Source of the DNA: Bacilli bacterium
GTDB lineage: Bacteria; Bacillota_I; Bacilli_A; RF39; UBA660
Length of the DNA: 64,000 nt
Assembly (NCBI GenBank): GCA_017432825.1
Contig: JAFRIJ010000012.1
Coordinates: 1-64,000, forward strand
Direction: 5' to 3'
Within the stretch, counting starts at the first letter, position 1. Every line of letters starts with the position of its first letter. The position numbers were made by a program, and so were the translations under genes. This document shows positions 1,535-8,141 of this stretch, piece by piece. Below the pieces are notes generated by a model, which had not been told where the DNA came from, searched no databases, and saw only the letters and a program-made list of their open reading frames with translations.

Positions 1535-1563
1535 TTGACAATAACTATGATTTTTGTTATACT
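1535..1563 (+). promoter_or_regulatory. SigA-type promoter of the F1-like ATPase operon
   Basis: TTGACA at 1535-1540 and TATACT at 1558-1563 are separated by exactly 17 bases, the best match to the vegetative consensus near this operon. Predicted transcription start is near 1570, which supports translation from 1609 rather than from the ATG at 1576. Confidence 0.85.
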
Positions 1564-1572
1564 TAAGTATAG

Positions 1573-1854
<282 letters not shown>

Positions 1855-1860
1855 TAAAAA

Positions 1861-2625
1861 ATGTTATACTTATTTATAATTTCTATACTTGTATTATGTC
1901 TATTAGTAGCACTAATGTTTTTCATATTAAGAAAAACAGTAAAAACAATCAACAATCAAACAAAATTATACTTTGTAGATAAAGTACAAGAATATGATTA
2001 TTTAATAACTCAAAAAGAAGAACAATTAGAAGAAATAGATAAAGAAATTAAGGAAAAAGAATCCCAAAAAGAAGAAAAAGAATTATATGGTGGTACTAGT
2101 AATTACGAATTTGATTATAATATAATTGATTTAATAAACAAAACAAAGTATCAAGATAAAAATATCTTTACTATAAATAAAAAAATAGATGAAAAGTTTA
2201 ATTTAGATTATGAAGCAATAATAAAAAAATTCTTAGAAAATACAAGTGGGAAAGAACAATATGATTTTTGTAATAATTTAAAGAATAAATTTACCAGCGA
2301 AATGATATATTTATTGAAAAGCTTACCAAATAATGATCAAGAACAAAAAATAAAAGAATTACTAAATGACCAAGAATATAAAATATATAAATTATATAAA
2401 GAAATAAACAAAAGTAATAATATTGATGGATTTATAGATTATTTAAATGAAATGTTAGATTTAAATAATCCTAAAATTATCGTTTATGTAGGGGATAAAA
2501 AAGAAAACTACGATCATATCAGTGAAAACATAAAAACTATATATAGAAATGATATTTATAAGGGTATTAAAATAAAATATCAAAATAGAATATATGATTA
2601 TAGTTTAAACGAAAGGAATGTATAG
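1861..2625 (+). CDS. Fused b/delta-like stator subunit of F1-like ATPase
   Basis: A 254-residue protein with one N-terminal membrane helix (residues 2-23), a charged Lys/Glu coiled-coil stalk (about 35-75), a helical middle, and a C-terminal segment whose end (around KGIKIKYQNRIYDYSL) resembles the closing beta element of F-type delta subunits and of V-type E/FliH stators, where a Gly-hydrophobic strand is followed by Asp-x-Ser-Leu. In canonical F-ATPases b and delta are separate proteins; here one gene occupies the place of both, between c and alpha. It would tie the top of F1 to the membrane. The assignment rests on architecture and gene position, not strong sequence identity. It lies 6 bases after the c-like gene. 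Confidence 0.65.
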   Translation: MLYLFIISILVLCLLVALMFFILRKTVKTINNQTKLYFVDKVQEYDYLITQKEEQLEEIDKEIKEKESQKEEKELYGGTSNYEFDYNIIDLINKTKYQDKNIFTINKKIDEKFNLDYEAIIKKFLENTSGKEQYDFCNNLKNKFTSEMIYLLKSLPNNDQEQKIKELLNDQEYKIYKLYKEINKSNNIDGFIDYLNEMLDLNNPKIIVYVGDKKENYDHISENIKTIYRNDIYKGIKIKYQNRIYDYSLNERNV

Positions 2626-2626
2626 C

Positions 2627-4033
2627 ATGAATAATGAAATAAAAGATAGTATTGATACTGCTATAGATAGCATAAAAGATAATAATAATGTATATCCAAC
2701 AGGAAGAGTAACAAAAGTAAATAAATATAATGTAGAAGTAACTGGATTAAATGATGTATCGTTTTATGAAGCAATTAGTATAGATAATAAAGCCAGTGGA
2801 TACGTAATGGGTATATATGCCAATAAAATAATTGTATCCCTAATTGAAAAAAAAGAAGAAATTATACCTGGAGATATAGTTTATGCTCTTAAAAAAGAAT
2901 TTAAGTGTAGTTTTAGCATCGATTCAATTGGAAAAGTAATTGATATATTTGGTAATGATTTAATTGCAGGGAAAAAATTTGATAAGCTAACCGATATTAG
3001 GATTGAAAATAAAACAACACCTATAATGGATAGAACAAATGTAAATGAAGAATTACTAACAGGTATTTCCGGAATAGACTTAATGTATCCAATTGGAAAG
3101 GGTCAAAGACAATTAATAATAGGTGATAAAAAAACAGGTAAAACTCAAATAGCATTGGATACAATAGTTAATCAAAAAGGGAAAAAAGTAATATGTATTT
3201 ATGTTGCAATAGGAAAAACTAAAAAAGAAGTAAAAGATATATATTTTGAATTAACCAAAAGAGGAGCTTCTAGTTATACAATTATAGTTGCATCATTTAA
3301 TGATGAATTACCTACAAGAACATATTTAACACCATATGTTGCAACCTCTATAGCAGAAAGTTTTATGCTTCAAAAATATAATGTATTAGTAGTATTTGAT
3401 GATTTAAAGAAACATGCAGATGTATATCGTGAAATAAGCTTAAACAGTCATAAAACACCTGGTAGAGATGCTTATCCATCAGATATATTCTATACACATT
3501 CTAGACTCCTTGAAAAAGGAGCAAAACATGTATGTGGTGGTTCGATAACGATGCTACCAATAGTAGAAACAAAAAGTGGAGACATAACAGATTATATATC
3601 TACAAATATAATATCAATATGTGATGGACAATTAGTATTATCAGCAAAGAATTTTGCTAAAGGAGAAAAACCAGCAATTGATTACGGACTATCTGTATCA
3701 AGACTAGGTGGTAACGTTCAAACAGATGATATGAAAAAAGTAGGTAGTAAATTAAGAAGAGAATTATTATCATACTTAGAAGTAAGAGAAGTATATGAAT
3801 TAGCAAACATTGATGAAATGAGCAAAGAACTACAAAAAAAATTAAAAGATGGACAAGAAATGTTAAATAAATTAAAACAATATAAGTTTAGTCCAAGAAC
3901 TAAAGAAGAAATGAAAAATGATTTTGCGTTTATATTTAATAAAGAAAACGTAGAGGAAACTAATAATAATCAACAAAATAATATTGTTGAACAAGCAAAT
4001 GAAATTAAAGAAGAATCACAAAAAGAAGAATAA
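2627..4033 (+). CDS. F1-like ATPase alpha subunit
   Basis: A 468-residue alpha-type subunit. It has the N-terminal beta-barrel, a P-loop GDKKTGKT following the typical PIGKGQRQLIIG approach, the VVFDDL segment in place of the usual DDLSK motif, PGRDAYPSDIFY, STNIISICDGQ, and the arginine-finger region LSVSRLGG. Length is below the usual ~500: the C-terminal helical domain is shortened and ends in an acidic, Asn/Gln-rich tail. In canonical F1, alpha binds non-exchangeable nucleotide and supplies the arginine finger to beta; all residues needed for this are visible. The ATG at 2618 lies directly on the Shine-Dalgarno sequence, so the start is placed at 2627 with GAAAGG 10 bases upstream. One base separates it from the stator gene. 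Confidence 0.9.
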   Translation: MNNEIKDSIDTAIDSIKDNNNVYPTGRVTKVNKYNVEVTGLNDVSFYEAISIDNKASGYVMGIYANKIIVSLIEKKEEIIPGDIVYALKKEFKCSFSIDSIGKVIDIFGNDLIAGKKFDKLTDIRIENKTTPIMDRTNVNEELLTGISGIDLMYPIGKGQRQLIIGDKKTGKTQIALDTIVNQKGKKVICIYVAIGKTKKEVKDIYFELTKRGASSYTIIVASFNDELPTRTYLTPYVATSIAESFMLQKYNVLVVFDDLKKHADVYREISLNSHKTPGRDAYPSDIFYTHSRLLEKGAKHVCGGSITMLPIVETKSGDITDYISTNIISICDGQLVLSAKNFAKGEKPAIDYGLSVSRLGGNVQTDDMKKVGSKLRRELLSYLEVREVYELANIDEMSKELQKKLKDGQEMLNKLKQYKFSPRTKEEMKNDFAFIFNKENVEETNNNQQNNIVEQANEIKEESQKEE

Positions 4034-4038
4034 AGTGA

Positions 4039-5638
<1,600 letters not shown>

Positions 5639-5640
5639 AT

Positions 5641-6183
5641 ATGAATAATAAAGAAATAATACAAGGATTAGTAAATTTTACAGCTGTATCAATAGTCTTT
5701 TTAATAGTATTATTAATAATATTTTCCATATTTTTAAAAAAATTTAAATTTAACAAGAAGAATATAGAAATATATGGCTTATTTCTAAATTTAGATACAA
5801 TCTCATTAATATCAATATCATCATTAACTATAAATTATTTATTCTTAGTATGGTGTACATTAAGTTTTCAAGGATTAAACATAATATACGTATCATTTAC
5901 CATAATATTAGTATTCTTAAGTGATGCAGTCAGCGATAATTTTAATAATTTACCAAAATCATTAGGGTTAACAGTAGTAAATTGCGCTGCAATACAAATA
6001 ACTTATTTAATATATAATCATCTAATGACAGAAAAATTTTCATATTTATTAGCAATTATTTTAGGACTAGTTGTTTTATTTGTATTTCTATATTATACAT
6101 ATAATTTACTAAGACAAATAAACAATATTGCTGTAAAACAAAAATATCAAAAAGAGAAAAAATATAAAAAATATAAAATATAA
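5641..6183 (+). CDS. Multi-pass membrane protein in F1-like ATPase operon, unknown
   Basis: A 180-residue integral membrane protein with about five hydrophobic helices (approximately residues 12-33, 45-75, 78-97, 107-125, 130-154) and a very basic C-terminal tail (Lys-rich, cytoplasmic by the positive-inside rule). It lies between the epsilon and gamma genes, 2 bases after epsilon and 12 before gamma. It is not subunit a: there is no conserved helix with the essential Arg, and no Asn/Gln pattern typical of that subunit. It is also larger than AtpI. As the only polytopic protein of the operon it is the best candidate for what replaces the ion channel or receives the mechanical output. No family is recognised. 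Confidence 0.75.
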   Translation: MNNKEIIQGLVNFTAVSIVFLIVLLIIFSIFLKKFKFNKKNIEIYGLFLNLDTISLISISSLTINYLFLVWCTLSFQGLNIIYVSFTIILVFLSDAVSDNFNNLPKSLGLTVVNCAAIQITYLIYNHLMTEKFSYLLAIILGLVVLFVFLYYTYNLLRQINNIAVKQKYQKEKKYKKYKI

Positions 6184-6195
6184 GGAGGTATTAAT

Positions 6196-6987
6196 ATGAG
6201 TAGCATAAAAAATGTCGTTAAAGTAATGAATTTCCACTCCTTACTTAGAGTTGACAAAGCAAGAAAAAAAGCTGAAAAATACTTAAGTGTAGGTAATGAA
6301 ATTACTAAGATATTAACAGAAATACTATATAATAAGAATTTAGTATTAGATAAACAAATATTAATACCAGATAAAAATAAACCAATATTAGATATCTATG
6401 TTGCAAATGATTATGGATATTGTGGTGATTTTAATTCAAGTGTAAGAAGAGCTATAATTGAAAATAAAGATCACTATAAAATAATTATTGGTAAAAAAAT
6501 ATTATATAAAGATGATAAAACAGTATTAAAAATAGAAAAAGATTTATTTAATGAAGAGTTTTTAAAAATACAACACTGTATAGAAAAATCGTTATTAGAT
6601 ATGTCATATAGTGAAATAAATATATATTATAATCACTATTATTCATCAACAACATTTGAATTCAAAAAAATAAATGTATTTCCAATAGAATTTAAAGGAG
6701 AATACTACGAAGGAACAGATTTTATTGCAGAAACAGATTTAAAGAAAATGTTAAAGAGTTTAATATCGTTTTATATATGTTACCAATTAAAAATGTGTGA
6801 GTGTATAAGTGAAGCAGCAGAAAATTTAAACAGAAACCAAATAACTAGTTTAGCACTAGATAAAATTGAAGAAATAGAAGAAGAACAATACAACACAGAA
6901 AGAAGAAAAATAAACGAAGAAGCATGTTTTAAAAATGTTGAAAACTTCAAAAAAATACTCCAAACAGCAGGTGATAACAATGAATGA
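6196..6987 (+). CDS. F1-like ATPase gamma subunit
   Basis: A 263-residue gamma-like protein. The N-terminal helix begins with the gamma-type pattern (SSIKNVVKVMNFHSLLRVDKARKKAEK), the central Rossmann-like part has YVANDYGYCGDFNSS matching the canonical SDRGLCGGLN segment, and the C-terminal helix contains a stretch equivalent to the end of the rotor shaft (NRNQITSLALDKIEEIEEEQYN). The normal closing EIVGGAEAL is replaced by a divergent end. Gamma is the rotating shaft inside alpha3beta3. It lies after the unknown membrane protein rather than between alpha and beta. An AAGGAGG site at 6183 supports the start. The last 8 bases overlap the next small gene. Confidence 0.85.
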   Translation: MSSIKNVVKVMNFHSLLRVDKARKKAEKYLSVGNEITKILTEILYNKNLVLDKQILIPDKNKPILDIYVANDYGYCGDFNSSVRRAIIENKDHYKIIIGKKILYKDDKTVLKIEKDLFNEEFLKIQHCIEKSLLDMSYSEINIYYNHYYSSTTFEFKKINVFPIEFKGEYYEGTDFIAETDLKKMLKSLISFYICYQLKMCECISEAAENLNRNQITSLALDKIEEIEEEQYNTERRKINEEACFKNVENFKKILQTAGDNNE

Positions 6988-7156
6988 TAATATTAAACCA
7001 AATGAAATATCACAAAGGATTGAAGAAATTCAAAAAGAAATACCAAATTTAAATGTGCCAACAATGGGAATAATTTCTGAAAAGAATAATATAAAAATAA
7101 ACAATAATGAGTTTATTAAAACTAAAGAAATAAAGGAGGATAAAGATGTTAAATAG
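6980..7156 (+). CDS. Small hydrophilic protein at end of ATPase operon, unknown
   Basis: A 58-residue, Asn/Lys/Glu-rich soluble protein with no membrane helix and no motif I recognise. The start at 6980 is chosen because it has an AGGTGA site and overlaps the gamma stop codon, a coupling typical of operon members; an upstream in-frame ATG at 6935 would lie deep inside gamma. Its own end overlaps the start of the pilin gene by 11 bases and contains that gene's AAAGGAGG site. Tight linkage on both sides suggests co-translation with gamma and the pilin. It could be a small regulator or chaperone of either; this is not shown by sequence. Confidence 0.6.
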   Translation: MNDNIKPNEISQRIEEIQKEIPNLNVPTMGIISEKNNIKINNNEFIKTKEIKEDKDVK

Positions 7157-7358
7157 AAAAGGACAAACATTAGTTGAATACGTCCTAATAATATCACTTG
7201 TCACCGTAGTTGCCATTGCGGCAGTAAGAATATTTGGAGGATATTTAAAAGACTCTGTAACAAAAATGAGTTGCCAAATGATTGGAAAAAAATATATAGA
7301 AGGAAAAAAAGTAGGTGAAGCCTACTGCGAAGGAGACGAAGATAAAATATTTAATTAA
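7146..7358 (+). CDS. Flp-type (class III signal) pilin-like protein
   Basis: A 70-residue protein with a basic N-terminus, a prepilin-type cleavage site RKG/QTLVEY, and a hydrophobic helix through about residue 27. Glu at +5 followed by Tyr is the hallmark of Flp/Tad pilins. The C-terminal part is short and basic then acidic, with two Cys (in SCQ and YCE) that could form a disulfide. Flp pilins are cleaved by a prepilin peptidase and polymerise into thin fibres. No Tad ATPase, TadB/C or peptidase gene is in this window; instead the gene is the last of the F1-like ATPase operon, overlapping its neighbour by 11 bases. A perfect AAAGGAGG site precedes it. Confidence 0.75.
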   Translation: MLNRKGQTLVEYVLIISLVTVVAIAAVRIFGGYLKDSVTKMSCQMIGKKYIEGKKVGEAYCEGDEDKIFN

Positions 7359-7359
7359 T

Positions 7360-7382
7360 CGCTTTATATAGCGGTTTTTTTA
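7360..7382 (+). terminator. Probable terminator of ATPase/pilin operon
   Basis: A short GC hairpin (CGCT/AGCG) directly after the pilin stop is followed by a run of seven T. The stem is only about 4 bp, so efficiency is uncertain. Confidence 0.5.
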
Positions 7383-7399
7383 TAATAGTTAACTAATAC

Positions 7400-7428
7400 T
7401 TGACAAAAAAAGTAATTTATAGTAAAAT
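7400..7428 (+). promoter_or_regulatory. SigA-type promoter
   Basis: TTGACA at 7400-7405 and TAAAAT at 7423-7428 with a 17-base spacer drive the two small genes that follow. Confidence 0.8.
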
Positions 7429-7452
7429 ATCAAACCATCAGGGGGAATTGGT

Positions 7453-7902
7453 ATGGAAAAGAGTAATAAAGATTTAATAATTGAAATTGCTTTTGTAACT
7501 ATTTTTTTACTAATAGTAGTTCCAGTGTGTGTAAATGCAAGTGCTAATTTTAGAGAAGCTAAGTTAAAAGCTGAATGTAGTAATAATATTTCAATAAATA
7601 TTGCAACAAAAAATTCAAATAAAATAATAGAGATGACAAATTTAAATAAAAAACCAAGTAAAACAAAATTAATATTAAAAATAACAAAATATATAAATGA
7701 ATATGCTATAAACTTAAATGATGAGATAAAAAAACTAAATGATATGGATCACACTGAAGATGATAATAATTATTATTTTAATTTAGGAACATATGAAGTA
7801 GAAAAATATAACGAAGTAAAATTTAAATTGTTATTAATAAACAATTTAGTTGATTCAGAAAATATAACATATAGTTTTATTACGGAGGAAGAAAGTTGTT
7901 AG
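7453..7902 (+). CDS. Membrane-anchored small protein, possibly pilin-like, unknown
   Basis: A 149-residue protein with an acidic/basic N-terminal segment, one hydrophobic helix (about residues 9-28) and an extracellular Lys/Asn-rich domain with Cys near both ends (residues 42 and 149), which could pair. The N-terminus lacks a Gly/Phe prepilin site, so pilin identity is only suggested by size, topology and closeness to the Flp-like gene. A GGGGGAA site precedes the ATG. It is transcribed from its own promoter just downstream of the ATPase/pilin operon and overlaps the next gene by 7 bases. Confidence 0.65.
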   Translation: MEKSNKDLIIEIAFVTIFLLIVVPVCVNASANFREAKLKAECSNNISINIATKNSNKIIEMTNLNKKPSKTKLILKITKYINEYAINLNDEIKKLNDMDHTEDDNNYYFNLGTYEVEKYNEVKFKLLLINNLVDSENITYSFITEEESC

Positions 7903-8141
7903 ATAATTATAACTATAAGAATTATTTGCGAGTAGATAATAAAAAGGGGCTACTAATTAATAGAAATGATATTTATGTACTAGATAAATATCATTTTGAT
8001 TATAAAAAATATAATAATCTAAGTAGTCTAATATTTGATATTGATAATTATTTAAATGATACTGATGAAGTATTGGAAGATTTAGAAGAAGTATTAATAA
8101 GATTAAGTGAATTTCATTATTACAATGAAACAAAAAAATAG
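7896..8141 (+). CDS. Small acidic protein, unknown
   Basis: An 81-residue soluble protein rich in Asp, Asn, Tyr and Leu. It appears to start at TTG 7896, because GGAGGAA lies just upstream (7884-7890) and the frame has no ATG in a suitable place. The start overlaps the previous stop codon, implying translational coupling. No motif is recognised. The C-terminal third looks helical. It ends inside a strong bidirectional terminator shared with RNase J. Confidence 0.6.
   Translation: MLDNYNYKNYLRVDNKKGLLINRNDIYVLDKYHFDYKKYNNLSSLIFDIDNYLNDTDEVLEDLEEVLIRLSEFHYYNETKK

Follow-up and report, generated by a model that had tools for sequence, protein, structure and literature searches.

A solitary Flp-type pilin gene at the end of an F1-like ATPase operon in a Bacilli genome

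Genes and boundaries of the ATPase-pilin operon

The window analyzed here, a stretch of 64,000 nucleotides, is the start of a contig in a 1.16-Mb draft genome (93.5% complete) whose nearest named relatives are uncultured gut Bacilli. It carries genes for an F-type c-like subunit, a 254-aa membrane-anchored protein, alpha, beta and epsilon-like subunits, a membrane protein, a gamma subunit, a 58-aa protein and a Flp-type pilin, in this order (Table 1). The gamma gene and the 58-aa gene share 8 nt, the 58-aa gene and the pilin gene share 11 nt, and the ribosome site of the pilin, AAAGGAGG, is located inside the 58-aa gene. A scan of the + strand from 6630 to 7400 detected no promoter-like site, and a terminator-like hairpin only after the pilin. 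Both the gene overlaps and the absence of a promoter or terminator between gamma and the pilin, as proposed in an earlier sequence-only reading of this DNA, were thus borne out. The two top promoter-like sites of the + strand (11/12 each) lie at 1535-1563 and 7400-7428, and the c-to-flp operon is most likely co-transcribed from the former. Behind the pilin, two small genes (7400-8141; 149 and 81 aa) are conserved in three loci of the same genus, with a very similar TTGACA-17-TAAAAT promoter upstream.

Table 1. Features of the operon ending with the pilin gene, with their positions in the window.
Feature	Position	Strand	Basis or remark
Likely promoter of the c-to-flp operon	1535..1563	+	TTGACA-17-TATACT with TG ahead of the -10; top promoter-like site of the region, 11/12
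F-type c-like subunit	1576..1854 (start may be 1606)	+	PF00137 E 4.7e-9; helix 2 without acidic residue
Membrane-anchored protein in the b/delta place	1861..2625	+	No family match
F1 alpha-like subunit	2618..4033	+	PF00006 E 7.4e-71
F1 beta-like subunit	4048..5400	+	TIGR01039 atpD above cut-off
Epsilon-like small subunit	5387..5638	+	Position and conservation in the locus only; no Pfam or NCBIfam match
Multi-span membrane protein	5641..6183	+	Position conserved in the locus
F1 gamma-like subunit	6196..6987	+	Pfam PF00231 E 6.5e-22
58-aa "linker"	6980..7156	+	Predicted to be a shortened counterpart of the C-terminal tail found in post-gamma proteins of sister genera; own copy assigned by position and 40% identity
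Flp-type prepilin, 70 aa	7146..7358	+	Probable major pilin of a Tad pilus; sole Flp gene found in the genome
Terminator-like hairpin closing the operon	7357..7376	+	Directly behind the pilin

The alpha/beta pair of this operon is the only one found in the genome. Helix 2 of the c-like subunit was placed from the conserved NPE motif, with an E. coli c sequence as anchor; on this placement, all 64 relatives carry T, A, S or M at the ion-binding position, and the helix is acid-free throughout in 63 of them, the last one (L181) having a D close by. No match to subunit a (PF00119) was found in the 93.5% complete draft genome. The F1-like ATPase therefore looks unable to pump ions, as judged from these sequences. 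The motor had been described as lacking ion-channel parts, which holds for the ion-binding acid and subunit a, neither of which was found, but not for the c-like subunit, which is present (PF00137). Related ATPase loci (L149-L223) are distributed in Bacilli, Lachnospiraceae, Clostridia, Peptococcaceae and one Coriobacteriales genome. Their usual partners are a protein of 1000-1950 aa and a 470-aa protein, joined in many loci by a protein of about 2300 aa. A search of the open-licence literature for F1-like ATPases in Lachnospiraceae returned nothing relevant.

The last gene of the operon was confirmed as a Flp-type pilin. Its product carries the class III signal of Flp/Tad major pilins (MLNRKG/QTLVEY, cut at the slash), with G before the cut, E at +5 and Y at +6. 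It matches Class_IIIsignal (PF04021) above the cut-off (E 4.7e-6) and Flp_Fap (PF04964) below it (E 1.3e-4). The signal motif and two cysteines are common to the pilins at every genomic site compared. The pN/pS ratio is 0.16 for the pilin, 0.15 for gamma and 0.59 for the 58-aa gene, the fastest-evolving of the three; the pilin value is close to that of gamma and points to purifying selection, so the pilin is not a decaying copy.

The 58-aa gene has a different affiliation. Post-gamma proteins of sister genera are 86-640 aa long, and many end with a tail like DIILPTMGLTNNEKVDVPIVSENYI. A profile of this tail detected six of the seven small genes of the genus above 1400 shuffled controls. The E-values ran from 4e-9 for the best match to 8e-3 for the weakest, which narrowly beat the top shuffle (0.02). 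The copy encoded in the window is not among the tail-profile matches listed, and was assigned by its position and by 40% identity to one orthologue of the genus. On this basis, the 58-aa gene is a putative reduced accessory gene of the ATPase and not a part of the pilus; the idea of a "linker" acting as a pilus component was dropped in favor of this reading, given the tail profile in 6/7 genus copies.

Tad machinery and pilin location in this genome and its relatives

The pilus assembly genes are located on other contigs. Contig 10 carries a TadZ-TadA-TadB-TadC locus together with two TadE pseudopilins, and no Flp gene was found beside it. A search of the whole genome for Flp returned one true gene, at 7146-7358, and two other matches that are TadE pseudopilins; since the draft is 93.5% complete, a second Flp gene could be missing. 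A single prepilin peptidase, on contig 3, adjoins a T2SSF gene; it has both A24 domains (A24_N and A24) and is PilD-like, unlike the short TadV. The statement of the sequence-only reading that TadA is not here applies to the window only: TadA, TadB/C and a prepilin peptidase are all encoded by the genome. The same reading had envisaged a full tad locus carrying its own pilins, with the window gene as a stray copy. A tad locus does exist elsewhere, but it is without Flp. With TadA in the genome and a sole Flp gene found, the window pilin is the only apparent major pilin of TadA. It lies outside the tad locus of this genome, a situation common in the family, and residence in that locus is not required of a Tad pilin.

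Other genes of these contigs deserve mention. A PilB-like gene is present on contig 9 (L005), with PilC- and PilD-like genes on contig 3 (L141), and from this gene content the genome may encode a second type IV filament. At a distance of about 8 kb from the tad genes, L004 (16740-18572) encodes a 610-aa coiled-coil protein homologous to the post-gamma protein of sister genera. A membrane protein on contig 3 (L141, 1-1701), similar on visual comparison to the 470-aa ATPase partner, is encoded close to the prepilin peptidase, with no ATPase in its neighborhood.

In several relatives, a pilin orthologue (49-60% identical) heads a tad operon with the order flp-TadE-(TadE)-TadZ-TadA-TadB-TadC. Elsewhere the pilin is solitary, at a site that varies with the genus: behind murG-murB-ftsQ or pnp, or in the vicinity of feoAB or ireB-yqgF-mltG (neighbor names read from the sequences by eye). 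No tadA lay within 6 kb of the pilin in 64 of 115 genomes checked, an upper bound given the short draft contigs. Most relatives having both a pilin and a gamma locus carry the pilin away from gamma, at such housekeeping sites or at the head of tad. Within this genus, the order gamma-small gene-pilin was found in all seven loci read, where the small gene and the pilin gene either overlap or lie no more than 2 nt apart and the genes downstream vary. Because it recurs in seven loci, the arrangement is not an assembly accident. Conservation of this order, raised as a check on the original proposal, thus holds throughout the genus and fails in most homologous operons, which lack the pilin; neither outcome named as refuting the proposal, absence of the pilin from homologous operons or a stray copy beside a full tad locus, was cleanly obtained. 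One genome (G312) contains two similar gamma-linker-pilin units, which 5% contamination could explain. Another genome of the genus (G123) has tad genes and neither the pilin nor the ATPase; a neighboring gene was likewise not found, the absence is likely an assembly gap, and this genome could not be used as a natural loss of both.

We further compared gene presence in 386 genomes of the same family, with thresholds of E up to 1e-10 for the pilin, up to 1e-60 for tadA and under 1e-30 for gamma. The pilin was present in 182 genomes, tadA in 208 and a gamma of this kind in 33. Pilin and tadA occurred together in 171 genomes, the pilin alone in 11, tadA alone in 37 and neither in 167 (odds ratio 70, p 5e-57, related species being counted as separate). 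The association with gamma was weak (odds ratio 2.8), with both genes in 23 of the 386 genomes, the pilin alone in 159, gamma alone in 10 and neither in 194. Among the 33 gamma genomes, the pilin was found in 23 of the 24 with tadA and in none of the nine without (p 2.6e-7), so that nine of the ten gamma genomes lacking the pilin also lack tadA. Counting related species separately makes these p-values too small, while the direction is plain: pilin presence tracks tadA rather than the gamma subunit of the ATPase.

A second clade (L175-L178, L180) also carries the pilin directly after gamma. This genus and the second clade are apart in the gamma tree, and the adjacency needs two changes. In the pilin tree, which has few columns and weak forks, the second clade groups with a solitary pilin from the same chromosomal site. 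The grouping at a shared site, together with the separate gamma clades, suggests that the ATPase probably arrived beside a pre-existing pilin. Four of the five second-clade loci show, by eye, a promoter (TTGACA and a -10 box) that overlaps the 3' end of gamma and gives the pilin its own likely start. For these reasons, we did not accept the second clade as proof of an ancestral functional operon. The probability that such an adjacency would arise by chance a second time in some ten genera is roughly 0.004-0.017, which hints at some functional pull towards the ATPase.

Probable co-production, rather than mechanical coupling, of the motor and the pilus

Taken together, these gene contents make it likely that the window gene encodes the major pilin of a Tad pilus, an orphan made together with an F1-like motor and built into a fibre by TadA, which is encoded on another contig. 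As the pilin is the last gene of the ATPase operon in this genus, its synthesis would be set by the operon promoter and by coupled translation. The prepilin would probably be cut by the single PilD-type peptidase of the genome and polymerized by TadA/B/C with TadZ and TadE, encoded on the other contig. Co-expression with the ATPase would then be regulatory rather than mechanical, the motor and the pilus probably being co-produced surface machines rather than one driving the other. Against this explanation, we counted the PilB, PilC and PilD genes of the genome, whose products may be an alternative assembler.

The same Tad-pilin identity is kept if a mobile orphan pilin gene landed by chance behind the operon and shares its promoter without functional consequence; only the meaning of co-expression differs. 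The solitary pilins lying behind unrelated genes in sister genera (ftsQ, pnp, feoAB, ireB-yqgF-mltG) and the frequent distance from tadA (up to 64/115 genomes) make such a relocation a serious contender, to which we give somewhat less than an even chance. It fits less well with the overlap or near-overlap kept in 7/7 genus loci despite changed neighbors, and with the head-to-tail gamma-pilin adjacency of the second clade. That the pilin is a stray or decaying copy of one from a tad locus is extremely improbable: a tad locus does exist elsewhere in the genome, but it lacks Flp, the genome search gave no second Flp, and the pilin is under purifying selection.

The sequence-only reading had suggested that the F1-like motor may power the fibre, and this proposal was not supported by the wider comparison. 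The pilin tracks tadA, the TadZABC, TadE and PilD genes are present elsewhere in the genome, and the same pilin heads tad operons in relatives; with tadA in the genome, the motor as a replacement for TadA was rejected. A mechanical action of the motor on the fibre (assembly, retraction, rotation or movement) would agree with the coupled genes of the genus, the independent adjacency in the second clade and the analogy with related mycoplasma F1-like ATPases, which work with surface proteins (PMC8406192, PMC11864180, PMC12994834). As the ATPase looks unable to pump ions, its torque would have to act on something else. We nonetheless regard this action as very unlikely, since a nearby pilin is missing from most homologous operons, whose constant partners are instead the giant surface proteins and the 470-aa protein, gamma genomes without tadA have no pilin, TadA, TadB and TadC are intact in this genome, and four of five second-clade pilins have their own promoter at the gamma stop. 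A more speculative view would make both a single surface machine in this genus: the motor would work on the base of the pilus or on giant surface proteins bound to it, for example rotating or retracting the fibre, and the sole major pilin would be produced only when the motor is; we hold this to be highly improbable.

Our preferred reading, an orphan pilin co-expressed with the motor, implies that control of an essential fibre subunit can pass to an unrelated surface machine once its gene has moved out of the assembly locus. The case also cautions against inferring function from a single operon. It further draws attention to a widespread, little-studied F1-like motor of gut Bacillota, with giant surface proteins as constant partners and a c-like ring predicted to be unable to carry ions in the usual way.

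Comparison with known ATPases and pili

The ATPase resembles F1Fo ATP synthase in its alpha, beta, gamma and c-like subunits, and differs from it by the missing acid of c helix 2, the absence of a subunit a match in the genome and the lack of a b/delta match; the pair formed by subunit a and a carboxylate-bearing c was thus not found. With the Mycoplasma type 2 (gliding G1) and type 3 (MIB-MIP) ATPases, it shares alpha, beta, gamma and a small epsilon-like gene alongside membrane and large surface proteins. The NCBIfam models MMOB1660 and MSC_0618 match alpha/beta strongly yet below their curated cut-offs (386.9/600 and 409.8/570 bits). The published mycoplasma clusters comprise seven genes, including one for a 12-span membrane protein, and lack a c subunit (PMC3369863, PMC12994834), a content not found at the window locus, which has a c-like subunit and other membrane genes. 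Gliding (PMC8406192, PMC11864180) and antibody cleavage (PMC12994834) are processes in which the mycoplasma ATPases work with surface proteins, and no pilin is described in the portions consulted of these papers (PMC3369863, PMC8406192, PMC11864180, PMC12994834).

The pilin agrees with the Tad/Flp (type IVc) pilus in its G/X4-E-Y prepilin signal and in the TadZ, TadA, TadB, TadC and TadE genes of the genome, and differs by a longer C-terminal part with two conserved cysteines. In the open-licence literature searched, nothing relevant was found on an F-type ATPase and a Tad pilus in one operon, nor any report of a sole Flp gene ending an F1-like ATPase operon. Bdellovibrio (PMC5430801) and Sinorhizobium (PMC10934763) are known to carry Flp genes away from the tad locus, and flp-less tad operons have been described in Gram-positive bacteria (PMC3244431). 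As both situations have precedents, the novelty resides in the host operon: the only Flp gene found here closes an operon for an F1-like ATPase.
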